Assembly (NCBI RefSeq): GCF_000280905.1
Contig: NZ_ALAP01000048.1
Location: forward strand, 1 to 64,000
Reading direction: 5' to 3'
DNA from: Streptomyces sp. AA1529
Lineage (GTDB): Bacteria > Actinomycetota > Actinomycetes > Streptomycetales > Streptomycetaceae
Length of the DNA stretch: 64,000 nt
Shown here: piece by piece, positions 35,642-41,641 of the stretch
Position numbering within the stretch: the stretch's first letter is position 1
Layout of the letters: each line of letters starts with the position of its first letter
Made by a program: the position numbers and the translations under genes
The notes under the pieces: model-generated
Database searches by the model: none
The model's input: only the letters and a program-made list of their open reading frames with translations
Told to the model about the DNA's origin: nothing

Positions 35642-35926
35642 TCAGCTCGGCCCGAAGCCGCCGTAGGGCCGGAGCGGCACGACGCGGAACTCCGACATCT
35701 CCTTCCGGGCCAGCGGAAGGGTGTCCACGGCCGCCTGCGCCTCCTGTGGCGAGCCGGCCTCCAGCAGGAAGCAGGCCCCCGGCCCGTCCCCGCGCAGCCA
35801 GATCTGCCGCAGTACCCCGTCCGCGTACAACTTCCGGACCGCCGCGGTCTCCTCGGGGAGCACGGCCGCGAACTCCTCCTCGGAATAGCGGTCGCTGTAG
35901 CGGCGGGTCATCACCAGGAACTGCAT
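35642..35926 (-). CDS. YciI / muconolactone-isomerase-like small protein
   Basis: A 94-residue ferredoxin-like-fold protein starting MQFLVMTRRYSDRYSEEEF. It has GDGPGACFLLEAGSPQEAQAAVDTLPL, as in YciI-type or muconolactone delta-isomerase-like dimers. Function unknown. Confidence 0.65.
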   Translation of the reverse strand: MQFLVMTRRYSDRYSEEEFAAVLPEETAAVRKLYADGVLRQIWLRGDGPGACFLLEAGSPQEAQAAVDTLPLARKEMSEFRVVPLRPYGGFGPS

Positions 35927-36037: not shown

Positions 36038-36784
36038 TCAGCCGTCGCCCAGCGTGCGGGCGAGGAGGGGCAGCAGCCGGTCCCAGTGGCGCCGCAACCC
36101 CTCCGGGCTGAAGGCGTCGGTGTCGGACATCGTGTAGCCGTGCAGCGTGCCGGGATAGATCTCCGAGGTGTAGCGGACCCCGGCGGCGTCCAGGGCCTGG
36201 TTCAGCTCACCGAGGGCCTCCGGCGTCAGATCGGTCTCGGCGTGCCCGAGGTGGATCTCGGCGGTGATCCTGGAGAGCAGGCGGTGCAGACTGTCCGGCT
36301 CGTCGGCGCCCACCGGGCCGTGGAACCCGGCGACGGCCGCCACCCGGTCGGGGAAGGCCGAGGCCGTGCGCACCGCCAGGAGACCGCCGATGCAGTAGCC
36401 CGTCACCGCGACGGGTCCGGGGCGGACCTCCGGCTGCGCGGAGAGGAACTCCAGGTAGGACTCGGCGTCGCGCACGATCCGTTCGTCGGTGTGCGCCTCG
36501 ATCAGGGGCATCAGCTTGCCGATGGCCGCGTCCCGGGCCTCGTCCCCGATGTGCTCGGGGAGTTCGACCACCGGTGCCGGACCGCTCCGGTAGAAGAAGT
36601 TGGGGACGAGCACGTAGTACCCGTGCCCGGCCAGTTCCTGCGCGAGTTCGCGCAGCACGGGCCGGTTGCCGAAGGCGTCCCCGTACATCAGCACCCCCGG
36701 GTGCTGTCCGGCACTGTCGGGAAGGGCGGCGAAAGCGTCGGCCCGGCCGTCCGCGGTGGGAATCGACAGCGTCTTGATGGGCAT
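36038..36784 (-). CDS. Dienelactone hydrolase family protein
   Basis: A 248-residue alpha/beta hydrolase with the nucleophile elbow GYCIGG (Cys) near residue 130, an acidic residue in AETDLTPE and His in TLHGYTM. All three members of a Cys-Asp-His triad are present. Substrate unknown. The start is ATG 36784. Confidence 0.85.
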   Translation of the reverse strand: MPIKTLSIPTADGRADAFAALPDSAGQHPGVLMYGDAFGNRPVLRELAQELAGHGYYVLVPNFFYRSGPAPVVELPEHIGDEARDAAIGKLMPLIEAHTDERIVRDAESYLEFLSAQPEVRPGPVAVTGYCIGGLLAVRTASAFPDRVAAVAGFHGPVGADEPDSLHRLLSRITAEIHLGHAETDLTPEALGELNQALDAAGVRYTSEIYPGTLHGYTMSDTDAFSPEGLRRHWDRLLPLLARTLGDG

Positions 36785-36888: not shown

Positions 36889-37650
36889 TCACCCGGGAGC
36901 CTCCCGCCGCTCCCCCCGGTCCGTCCCGCCGGCCTCCGCGAGCAGCCTGCTCACCCGGCGCATGACGTCCACCTGCGCGGGGTTGTAGAGGTCCACGAGG
37001 GCCCTGTCGATCGTCTCCCCGACGAACTCCTTGCCGCGCGCGGCATCGGCGGGCAGCGTGGTCAGCCCCGGATGCTCCCGGTACAGCGCCCGCAGCGAAG
37101 GCACCAGGCGCTCGGACAGGTCGGCGCGGGTCCGCTCGTCGGCGTCGCCGGGCAGCTTCTCGAACTCCTCGCCGATCGGACCGATGGTGGGGTTCTGCAG
37201 GAAGTCGGCGTAGGACTCCATGCCCTTGGGGCCGAGCAGGGTGCCCATGACGGTGACGAACGAGCGGTCCGCCTCGGGCATCGGGGTGTCGGCGGTCGCG
37301 GCGAACTCGGGCGGCAGATCGGTCGGCGCCGACCTGTCCAGAATGAGGGCGAGTTCCGCCCTGGCCCGCTGCAGCCGTTCGATGGTGGCCGCCAGTTCGG
37401 CGTCGAGGGTGCGCAACGCGTCCTCCGGATGGTCGTCGGTGGCGCCCATCTCGGCGATCCGGGACAGCGAGAACCCGAGATCCACCAGGCGCTTGATCCG
37501 CAGCAGCCGGACGAGATGGGCCACGCCGTACTGCTTGTAGCCGTTGGCGCGGCGCTCCGGTTCCTCGAGCAGGCCGACCTCGTGGTAGTGCCGCACCGCG
37601 CGCAGGCTGGTGCCCGCGAGTTCTGCTATCTCCCGCGTGCTCCACGCCAC
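36889..37650 (-). CDS. MerR family transcriptional regulator
   Basis: A 253-residue regulator. The N-terminal HTH is STREIAELAGTSLRAVRHYHEVGLLEEPERRANGYKQY. A coiled dimerisation helix (DAELAATIERLQRARAEL) and a ~130-residue helical effector-like C-terminal domain follow. Start GTG 37650 with GGAGC. Its promoter has a 19-bp spacer filled by a perfect dyad, typical of MerR control. A near-identical element lies before the divergent DUF3159 gene. Confidence 0.87.
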   Translation of the reverse strand: MAWSTREIAELAGTSLRAVRHYHEVGLLEEPERRANGYKQYGVAHLVRLLRIKRLVDLGFSLSRIAEMGATDDHPEDALRTLDAELAATIERLQRARAELALILDRSAPTDLPPEFAATADTPMPEADRSFVTVMGTLLGPKGMESYADFLQNPTIGPIGEEFEKLPGDADERTRADLSERLVPSLRALYREHPGLTTLPADAARGKEFVGETIDRALVDLYNPAQVDVMRRVSRLLAEAGGTDRGERREAPG

Positions 37651-37713
37651 GATGCTCCCGCTCCGTTCCGCCGCTGGACGTCGGCGCGGCGGCGCCGACG
37701 GACCCAAGTCCAA

Positions 37714-37734
37714 ACCATGCCGTCGCGGCATGGT
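37714..37734 (-). promoter_or_regulatory. MerR-type dyad promoter of the merR gene
   Basis: ACCATGCC (37714-37721) and GGCATGGT (37727-37734) form a perfect dyad around five bases. On the minus strand it lies between TTGACC (-35) and TGGACT (-10) with a 19-bp spacer, as in MerR-controlled promoters. About 60 bp upstream of the GTG start. Confidence 0.65.
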
Positions 37735-37917
37735 CAAGTGCGCCCGCGCGACGAGACATCCCCGAAGCCCCCGACCGGTGGCCCGAGCGCCACCATCCCG
37801 GCGGGAAAGGCCGCCCGGCGGTGCACCCGCGGCGGGCACCGGCCCGGGAACCCGCCGGAGCACCGGCTGTTCGGAAGCCGCCCGCGGGAACGTGATCCAC
37901 CCCACACCAGCCGCGGC

Positions 37918-37948
37918 TTGAGTATGCCGTAACGGCACGGTCTTTCCT
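37918..37948 (+). promoter_or_regulatory. Matching MerR-type promoter before the DUF3159 gene
   Basis: TTGAGT (37918-37923), a 19-bp spacer containing ATGCCGTAACGGCACGGT, then TTTCCT (37943-37948). Fifteen of 18 spacer bases match the merR-side element read on its own coding strand. Start codon 49 bp downstream. Confidence 0.6.
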
Positions 37949-37996
37949 GTTCCCCCCGTTCGCCAACCGCTCACGACGGAATCCAGGAGGGCACCG

Positions 37997-38788
37997 ATGA
38001 CCACGACCGATCAGCGCACGCTCACCACCTCCACCGGAGCCACCCCCGCAGCCACCCCGGCAGCCGCGCCGGGAGCCATGCCCGAAGCCGCGCCCGGTCT
38101 CGCCCCGGCAGGAGCCCCGGCAGGAGCCCCGGCCGATGAACGCGGGCCCGACCCGGCCCCGGAAGCCCCGGCCGCCGAGCCCGCTCCGGCCTCGTCGCAG
38201 CAGAAGCTGCTGGACCAACTCGGCGGCACCCGGGGGATGGTCTGCACAGCCATCCCGGTAGCGGCGTTCGTCGCGGCCAACGCGGCCGTCACGCTGCCGA
38301 TCGCGATCGGCGTCGCCCTCACCCTGGCGGCTGCGATCACCGTGTGGCGCACGGTGCAGGGCGAGCGCTTCGCCACGGCGGTCGGCGGTCTCGTCGGCGT
38401 GGCCACCGCCGGCGGCGTCGCGGCCTGGACGGGCTCGGCGGGCGACTTCTTCCTGATCGGCATCTGGGCGAGCTTCGCCGGGGCACTGGTCCTGCTCGGC
38501 TCCCTGCTCGCACGCCGCCCGCTGACCGGCGTGCTGTGGAACGTGTCGCACGGCAACACACACCCGTGGCGCGGCGACCGGCCCAGCCTGCTCGCGCACG
38601 ACATCGCCACCGGCACGCTCACCGTCCTGCTCGCGGCCAGGTTCGCCGTACAGCAGTGGCTCTACCTGACCGACGCCACCGGCTGGCTGGCCGTCGCCAA
38701 GATCGGCATGGGCACCCCGCTGCTGGCACCGGCGCTGCTGGTCGTCTTCTGGTCGTTCCGCCGCTCGACGAAGCGGCTGGTCCGCTGA
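37997..38788 (+). CDS. DUF3159 family membrane protein
   Basis: A 263-residue protein. Residues 1-70 are Ala/Pro-rich; from LLDQLGGTRGMVCTAIPVAAFVAAN onward it has six hydrophobic helices. GERFATAVGGLVGV matches DUF3159 from memory. Function unknown. Predicted target of the divergent MerR regulator. ATG 37997 follows GGAGGG. Confidence 0.75.
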   Translation: MTTTDQRTLTTSTGATPAATPAAAPGAMPEAAPGLAPAGAPAGAPADERGPDPAPEAPAAEPAPASSQQKLLDQLGGTRGMVCTAIPVAAFVAANAAVTLPIAIGVALTLAAAITVWRTVQGERFATAVGGLVGVATAGGVAAWTGSAGDFFLIGIWASFAGALVLLGSLLARRPLTGVLWNVSHGNTHPWRGDRPSLLAHDIATGTLTVLLAARFAVQQWLYLTDATGWLAVAKIGMGTPLLAPALLVVFWSFRRSTKRLVR

Positions 38789-40194: not shown

Positions 40195-40257
40195 AATCAG
40201 TAGCAGATTGCAACTGTTTTTACGTTAGGGCATGCTGGTTTCAATCCGCAACTGATT
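40195..40257. promoter_or_regulatory. HxlR operator arms in the MFS/HxlR spacer
   Basis: AATCAGTAGCAGATTG (40195-40210) and CAATCCGCAACTGATT (40242-40257) are inverted copies matching 14 of 16 bases. GCAACTG also repeats directly at 40210-40216 and 40248-40254. The left arm lies near the MFS start and the right arm near the HxlR ribosome site. Confidence 0.6.
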
Positions 40258-40267
40258 GGGAGGCGTC

Positions 40268-40726
40268 ATGCCGCGCAGCACCGAGCGCGCCCCTGACCCG
40301 GACTGGACCGACGCCGAATGCCCCGTCGCCCGTACGCTGGACCTGGTCGGCGACAGATGGAGCCTGCTCGTCATCCGCGACGCCATGGACGGGGCACGCT
40401 CGTTCACCGAGTTCCAGCGACGCACCGGTATCGCGCGCAACATCCTCACCGACCGCCTCCGCAAGCTCACCGCTCACGGGTTCCTGACCCAGCGCACCGC
40501 TCCCTCGGGGCGCCGCCGGGAGTACGTGCTCACCGACGCCGGCCGCGACCTCTTCCCGGTCATCCTCACGCTGCGGCAGTGGGGAGAACGCCACGCCTTC
40601 GCACCCGGCGAGGCCCACTCCACCCTCGTCGACGAGCACGGCACGCCGGTCCCGCACCTCGCACCGGCCGGCGCCGACGGCACGCCCCTGGGAGCCGGCA
40701 CCACCCAGGTGCGGAAGGTCCGGTAG
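40268..40726 (+). CDS. HxlR family transcriptional regulator
   Basis: A 152-residue winged-helix protein. It has CPVARTLDLVGDRWSLLVIRDAM, the HxlR signature including the single conserved Cys, then RTGIARNILTDRLRKLTAHG and the RREYVLTDAGRDLFPV wing. Probably a redox- or ligand-sensitive repressor of the divergent MFS. ATG 40268 follows GGGAGG. Confidence 0.9.
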   Translation: MPRSTERAPDPDWTDAECPVARTLDLVGDRWSLLVIRDAMDGARSFTEFQRRTGIARNILTDRLRKLTAHGFLTQRTAPSGRRREYVLTDAGRDLFPVILTLRQWGERHAFAPGEAHSTLVDEHGTPVPHLAPAGADGTPLGAGTTQVRKVR

Positions 40727-40912: not shown

Positions 40913-41641
40913 ATGACGACGATCAGCACCCGCGAGGTCGAGTACCCGGCCGACGGCCTCACGATGATCGGGCACCTCGCCCTCCCGGCCGGTACCGGCC
41001 GCCGCCCCGGCGTCCTGGTCGGTCCCGAGGGACCGGGGCTGAACGACTTCCAGCGCCGCCGGGCCGACGCCCTCGCCGAACTCGGTTACGTGGCCCTGGT
41101 CTTCGACCTGCACGGCGGCGGACGCTGGTTCACCGACCCCGAGGAGATGCTGGCCCGTACGACACCGCTCCTCGCCGACCCCGACCGGCTGCGGGACATC
41201 GGCCATGCGGCGCTCGACGTGCTGCGCGCCGAGCCGCGGACCGACCCCGGCCGGATCGCCGCCGTCGGCTACGGCACCGGAGGCGCGATCGCGCTGGAAC
41301 TCGGGCGCGACGGTGTCGACCTGCGGGCGATCGGAACGGTCAACGCGCTGACCACGGGCCGACCGGGCGAAGCCGCACACATCCGCTGCCCCGTGTGGGC
41401 CGGGGTCGGCTCCGAGGACCCGATCATGCCCGCCGAGCAGCGGGACGCCTTCGCGGCCGAGATGCAGGCAGCAGGCGTCGACTGGCGCCTGATGGTCTAC
41501 GGCGGCGCCCTGCACGCGTTCCACCACCCGTCCGTCGACCAGACCACCGTCCCCGGCGTCGCACACCACCCCCGGCACGCACGGCGAGCCTGGCGCGACA
41601 TCGTCGACCTGCTCGCCGAGTGCGTACCGGTGACGGAATGA
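40913..41641 (+). CDS. Dienelactone-hydrolase-like protein lacking the nucleophile
   Basis: A 242-residue alpha/beta hydrolase of the dienelactone hydrolase family (FDLHGGGRWFTD; VGSEDPIMPAEQR with the acid; GALHAFHHPSVD with the His). The nucleophile elbow reads GYGTGG near residue 124, with Gly where Cys or Ser is expected. It may be non-catalytic, binding-only, or use another mechanism. ATG 40913 is chosen for its fit to the first strand. Confidence 0.78.
   Translation: MTTISTREVEYPADGLTMIGHLALPAGTGRRPGVLVGPEGPGLNDFQRRRADALAELGYVALVFDLHGGGRWFTDPEEMLARTTPLLADPDRLRDIGHAALDVLRAEPRTDPGRIAAVGYGTGGAIALELGRDGVDLRAIGTVNALTTGRPGEAAHIRCPVWAGVGSEDPIMPAEQRDAFAAEMQAAGVDWRLMVYGGALHAFHHPSVDQTTVPGVAHHPRHARRAWRDIVDLLAECVPVTE

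Follow-up and report, generated by a model that had tools for sequence, protein, structure and literature searches.

Two matched sites in the window (the whole stretch of 64 kb analysed here) are very probably the operator-promoters of the MerR protein encoded at 36889-37650, which would regulate its own gene and, driven by a ligand, the divergently transcribed gene of a DUF3159 membrane protein. The identity, conservation and spacing of the sites, the pairing of operator and MerR type, and the classes of target genes come from the comparison of sequences among relatives. MerR proteins bind palindromes within 19-20-bp spacers, which put the -35 and -10 elements out of phase, and they activate transcription by kinking and undertwisting the DNA (PMC9909328).

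The following steps are proposed for the locus: (i) a MerR dimer would bind the dyad in the 19-bp spacer of both divergent promoters; (ii) without a signal, the dimer would keep these over-long promoters in a poorly used form; (iii) on binding of a small molecule by its C-terminal helical domain, MerR would twist the DNA so that RNA polymerase can start; and (iv) the promoters thus switched on would be those of the merR gene itself (autoregulation) and of the DUF3159 membrane protein. The inferred elements of this scheme are DNA binding by MerR, its repressing and activating action, the ligand, and a transport or protective role of the DUF3159 protein.

The divergent locus and its two sites

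The features of the locus are the following:

36038-36784, minus strand: dienelactone-hydrolase-family gene, 104 bp downstream of merR (PF01738, E 8.3e-36)
36889-37650, minus strand: MerR-family regulator gene (merR), 253 aa, GTG start at 37650 (Pfam MerR_1, E 9.9e-16)
37651-37664, minus strand: purine-rich ribosome-site region of merR, GGAGCGGGAGCATC (from the sequence)
37707-37737, minus strand: predicted merR promoter (pattern match, layout, orthologous loci)
37707-37712, minus strand: predicted -10 of merR, TGGACT
37713-37731, minus strand: 19-bp spacer of the merR promoter, ATGCCGCGACGGCATGGTT
37714-37734, minus strand: perfect dyad of the merR promoter, ACCATGCCG-CGA-CGGCATGGT
37732-37737, minus strand: predicted -35 of merR, TTGACC
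37918-37948, plus strand: predicted DUF3159 promoter (pattern match, layout, orthologous loci)
37918-37923, plus strand: predicted -35 of DUF3159, TTGAGT
37924-37942, plus strand: 19-bp spacer of the DUF3159 promoter, ATGCCGTAACGGCACGGTC, containing TGCCG-TAA-CGGCA
37943-37948, plus strand: predicted -10 of DUF3159, TTTCCT
37985-37990, plus strand: AGGAGG ribosome-binding site of the DUF3159 gene (from the sequence)
37997-38788, plus strand: DUF3159 gene, 263 aa, predicted membrane protein (PF11361, E 6.4e-54)

A sequence-only reading had described a divergent MerR / DUF3159 locus, and both identities hold by Pfam. The DUF3159 protein scores 183.1 bits against PF11361, whose gathering cut-off is 34.2, and is thus a member of the family. 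It has hydrophobic segments and a helical model (mean pLDDT 75.6); because a fold search with this model found nothing in the PDB at E <=0.001, structure was not used to assign a function. The dienelactone-hydrolase-family gene at 36038-36784 and merR possibly share one transcript. Among the loci compared, the gene cluster of this hydrolase (c40) lies behind merR in the nearest relative (L004) only. Near the locus, in order of coordinates, there are also a muconolactone-isomerase-like gene (35642-35926), an HxlR-type regulator (40256-40726) and a second dienelactone-hydrolase-family gene (40913-41641).

When the pattern TTGANNATGCCGNNACGGCANGGT was searched in the window with at most 3 mismatches, two matches were obtained, both exact, at 37714-37737 (minus strand) and 37918-37941 (plus strand); the same search in 100 shuffles gave a mean of 0.01 per window. 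Read on the coding strand, both sites consist of a TTGA -35, a 19-bp spacer with ATGCCG..ACGGCA.GGT and a following hexamer, exactly as the sequence-only reading had it in coordinates and counts; the identity of 15 of the first 18 spacer bases that it reported is confirmed by this layout. The dyad is perfect on the MerR side (9+3+9), and on the DUF3159 side in the inner TGCCG-N3-CGGCA only. A scan for the sigma-70 consensus, which permits spacers of 16-18 bp only, found no promoter.

Conservation, operator pairing and promoter register

With the MerR protein as query, 80 of 82 relatives' loci (in named genomes) were kept, spanning Streptomyces, Pseudonocardia, Saccharopolyspora, Actinomycetospora, Mycolicibacterium, Nocardia and others; among named relatives, the protein of Streptomyces himastatinicus is the nearest (80 % identity). 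Genes in the relatives were called with a simple script and, in consequence, their starts and part of the target assignments are approximate. To train a weight matrix, 45 distinct exact sites were taken from these loci, those of the window and of its near twin being excluded. On this matrix the two sites of the window score 36.1 and 38.1 bits, and simulated sequence yields about 1.5 sites per megabase at 14 bits or more. At a threshold of 18 bits there are 124 sites in total (3 inside called genes); an own site stands before merR in 50 of the 80 orthologous loci and is absent from 30, a count that is partly circular because the matrix was trained on the same loci, which does not apply to the pattern counts in the own genome and the same genus.

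In the same genus, a MerR relative (E<=1e-30) is present in 11 of 101 genomes (15 matches, G000 itself included). The exact TTGANNRTGCCGNNNCGGCAYRGT occurs 9 times in 5 of the 101 genomes, all five among those 11, and all nine sites lie within about 2.3 kb of the MerR gene; the reversed control gave 0 in all 101. The remaining six genomes with a MerR relative have no exact site. For five genomes drawn at random from the 101, the probability that every one belongs to the 11 is about 6 in a million, as calculated from the two counts.

The operator also varies together with the regulator. In the half-sites of some relatives GGGGC replaces CGGC. Where the operators are of the CGGC type, all 42 counted rows have Arg at residue 16 of the recognition helix (numbering begins at the Ala that follows the start codon); among the 17 rows labelled GGGGC, 14 have Lys. 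Of the three Arg rows labelled GGGGC, two (L035 and L092) have half-sites of mixed type and the third (L062) took its label from a second site. The 20 rows with no recognised site have Arg (19) or Asn (1). These counts cover 79 of 99 cluster rows, those with too short a called start being left out, and include the duplicate genes L007/L016 and L013/L017. Common descent may explain part of the pairing, because the Lys/GGGGC rows resemble one group of relatives, duplicates included. At five loci (L007, L013, L060, L067, L072) two MerR paralogs lie side by side: one comes with operators of the GGGGC type and with a TAP-like hydrolase gene that has a site of its own, and the second has no recognised site.

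Both predicted promoters have a 19-bp spacer with an internal dyad, as in the MerR family (19-20 bp), and this is conserved across relatives. Furthermore, the hexamer that follows the -35 at 19 bp has T as its first and last base in 47 and 48, respectively, of 49 own sites, and in 36 and 38 of 38 target sites. This conserved T-N4-T lies outside the inverted repeat. The start codons give a second view of the register. Of the 51 rows in which the start codon can be placed beside a conserved WST motif (L003, the window itself, among them), 17 have the start codon 37-38 bp from the -35, and none has it at 39-56 bp. Among these 17 short-distance rows, 2 carry a 4-base ribosome-site motif (GGAG, GAGG or AGGA, located 4-16 bp ahead of the start), compared with 33 of the 33 longer ones; a 5-base motif is present in 0 of 17 vs 25 of 33. 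For this count 50 rows were used, L077 being left out as its site reads in the reverse direction. In three further rows of the leaderless type (L063, L084 and L095), a GGAG ends at most 3 bp from the start, a distance too short for a ribosome site. The 17 short-distance merR orthologs (L031, L042, L063 and 14 other loci) thus look leaderless, with an mRNA that would begin at the start codon. If so, the conserved T residues would occupy positions of about -12 and -7, which fits a -10 element, and the same register in the window predicts transcription starts at about 37700 for merR (minus strand; leader of about 50 nt) and about 37955 for DUF3159 (plus strand; leader of about 42 nt).

This register bears on the idea that the sites are plain repressor operators, i.e., that the protein only blocks the polymerase until a ligand releases it, the true -10 being elsewhere. 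TGGACT and TTTCCT are indeed poor -10 hexamers in which position 2 is not the usual A (as in all but 1 of 49 own sites and in all 38 target sites), and the overlap of the dyad with the -35 would suit a repressor as well. Nevertheless, T-N4-T is kept at exactly 19 bp and outside the dyad, the leaderless-type spacing of the start codons agrees with a -10 at 19 bp, and the protein has the MerR fold, whose members typically act upon promoters with 19-20-bp spacers (PMC9909328). Simple repression is, for these reasons, unlikely. The reading of the two sites as MerR-type promoters on the merR and DUF3159 genes, already put forward from the sequence, is supported by the cross-species conservation of site and 19-bp spacing, by the start-codon spacing and by the covariation of operator and recognition helix.

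Predicted target genes and rarity of the site

The sites that do not stand before merR itself (n=74) were assigned to the following targets, with class names taken from Pfam scans of cluster representatives:

S9/S15 peptidase genes: 13 sites in 13 loci
DUF3159: 11 sites in 11 loci
Amidase: 7 sites in 7 loci
TAP-like hydrolase: 7 sites in 6 loci
MerR family itself: 5 sites in 5 loci
DPPIV-type peptidase: 4 sites in 4 loci
GPP34: 3 sites in 3 loci
Single further gene clusters: 13 sites, one each
No called target: 11 sites

Nine of the 13 single-site clusters were scanned with Pfam. They are two alpha/beta hydrolases (for one of them, the site falls within a called gene), a beta-lactamase-family gene, DUF418, YbaB-like, AAA ATPase, short-chain dehydrogenase, MFS transporter and a trypsin/GDSL protein. 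When the clusters of DUF3159, S9/S15, DPPIV, amidase and TAP-like genes are taken together, 42 of 70 genes have a site upstream vs 16 of 445 other neighbours, in a comparison whose classes were picked after the sites had been seen. The partner gene of relatives is often one for a hydrolase instead of DUF3159. Since the operator of relatives precedes DUF3159, peptidase, amidase, other hydrolase and, once, beta-lactamase-family genes, an amide, ester or peptide signal is suggested, and the module may sense and remove a compound of one of these types.

Two side observations concern the position of the site. In mycobacterial L041, L047, L048 and L069, merR and a peptidase or DUF3159 gene have only one site between them, which reads toward the latter gene, 37 bp from its called start. 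In Pseudonocardia, L081 (at ~4790) and L094 (at ~4792) carry a MerR-type site near the merR end; the former stands ahead of a beta-lactamase-family gene, and the latter inside a called gene of the same cluster.

There are 23 DUF3159 genes near MerR orthologs. In eleven, a site that scores 18 bits or more lies on the sense strand, no farther than about 450 bp upstream; one has a weaker site (16.1 bits, L064) and 11 have none. Regarding these 11, five lie behind an S9 peptidase gene with a site, one behind a GPP34 gene, four behind merR (two of them with an own site) and one (L065) behind none of these; seven are therefore behind a peptidase or merR gene that has a site. The 12 genes that lack a clear own-strand upstream site would fit a regulation of merR alone, in which the dyad on the DUF3159 side is a relic or a looping partner. 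Against it, the other 11 of the 23 have a clear site, the -35, the 19-bp spacing and T-N4-T are kept at target sites, and the site accompanies DUF3159 genes away from merR (L054, at -1784; L095, at -1600), which makes it very improbable that merR is the only gene controlled.

In the own 7.28-Mb genome, the full site at up to 3 mismatches occurs in these 2 places only, and the reversed-pattern control gave 0. The genome search for the dyad, named beforehand as a check, thus returned exactly these two sites. No enrichment is seen for the bare core TGCCGNNNCGGCANGG (11 rows, of which these two sites supply 3, vs 38 for the reversed control), which indicates that the site is made by the -35 and the flanks. 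The other two DUF3159 genes of the genome (L105, L106) have no site in their 3.5-kb stretches (best 1.7 and 3.0 bits) and no MerR relative at E 1e-3 in the same stretches; control would, in consequence, belong to the DUF3159 copy at the merR locus and not to DUF3159 genes generally.

That the inverted repeats are mere terminators or chance palindromes of GC-rich DNA is next to inconceivable and was rejected, for while a terminator scan flags 37926-37941 as terminator-like (1 vs 0.1 in shuffles) and the bare core lacks enrichment, the stem has 5 pairs only, the sequence is conserved beyond pairing and tied to MerR loci, and the full site has two copies in the genome against a control of 0 and a chance expectation of 0.01 per window.

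The regulator and its probable helical sensor domain

The MerR protein is above the cut-off for PF13411 and PF00376, i.e., it has the N-terminal winged helix-turn-helix of the MerR family; a MerR domain is matched (E up to 1) in 66 of 66 relatives. In its AlphaFold2 model (mean pLDDT 90.4), residues 1-108 align to solved MerR-type structures (best Z 13.2, rmsd 2.0, 105 residues aligned). In the predicted monomer, the DNA-binding domain is followed by a long helix (74-105) that matches the dimerisation helix of the MerR family, and the C-terminal part (about 145 residues) is modelled as all-helical. This C-terminal part has no Pfam family match, and a sequence search against solved chains returned nothing for it up to E 10. 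The fold lists for the whole model are filled by the DNA-binding part and contain no solved structure for the C-terminal part (~107-252).

Three known groups can be compared with the protein: (i) TipA-L of Streptomyces, a thiopeptide-responsive MerR protein, shares the MerR fold, and no solved chain gives a better sequence match than its DNA-binding part (2vz4, E 8.2e-16); (ii) the metal regulators CueR, CadR and MerR share the N-terminal fold and the over-long spacer layout; and (iii) the multidrug regulators of the BmrR/Mta type align in the DNA-binding part (Z 12.7-12.8 for MtaN and about 11 for BmrR) and, like the window protein, have a large C-terminal part, but the alignment with BmrR is limited to model residues 1-108 of the window protein.

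Membership of the first two groups was rejected. TipAS (PF07739) is absent, at E up to 1, from the 5 Pfam families listed for the window protein, and it is not among the 25 of 34 Pfam families shown for the 66 relatives; a profile comparison of the window protein with TipAS gave a probability of 0.2, the TipAS-to-TipAS control giving 99.8. The window protein falls below the curated equivalog cut-offs of all 12 NCBIfam models listed (MerR, 46.3 of 150.85 bits; CueR, 39.7 of 147.4), which argues against a metal-sensing equivalog. Metal-sensing MerR regulators are short proteins, whereas the window protein has a C-terminal part of about 145 residues. The regulator is best read as a local, probably ligand-responsive MerR protein that is not of the TipA type and whose helical sensor domain lies outside assigned families.

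In the open-access literature searched, no paper was recognised as describing the regulator, the operator or the sensor domain, and none names DUF3159 together with MerR; DUF3159 itself is named in two papers. The MerR switch is a local regulator of a known kind. A wider reading is conceivable, although somewhat less likely than its contrary: a MerR subfamily of actinobacteria that has yet to be described, equipped with a helical sensor domain and an operator code of its own (Arg/CGGC, Lys/GGGGC), might run inducible modules of DUF3159 and amide-, ester- or peptide-cleaving hydrolases, by which a natural product would be sensed and destroyed or processed, with DUF3159 as the membrane component.

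For DUF3159, a family of unknown function, a regulator, an operator and a promoter start can now be put to the test. The pairing of operator variants with MerR types opens a way to study DNA selection by MerR proteins. The repeated occurrence of hydrolases among the targets gives a hint of a ligand class, and a reporter on either promoter would permit a ligand screen.
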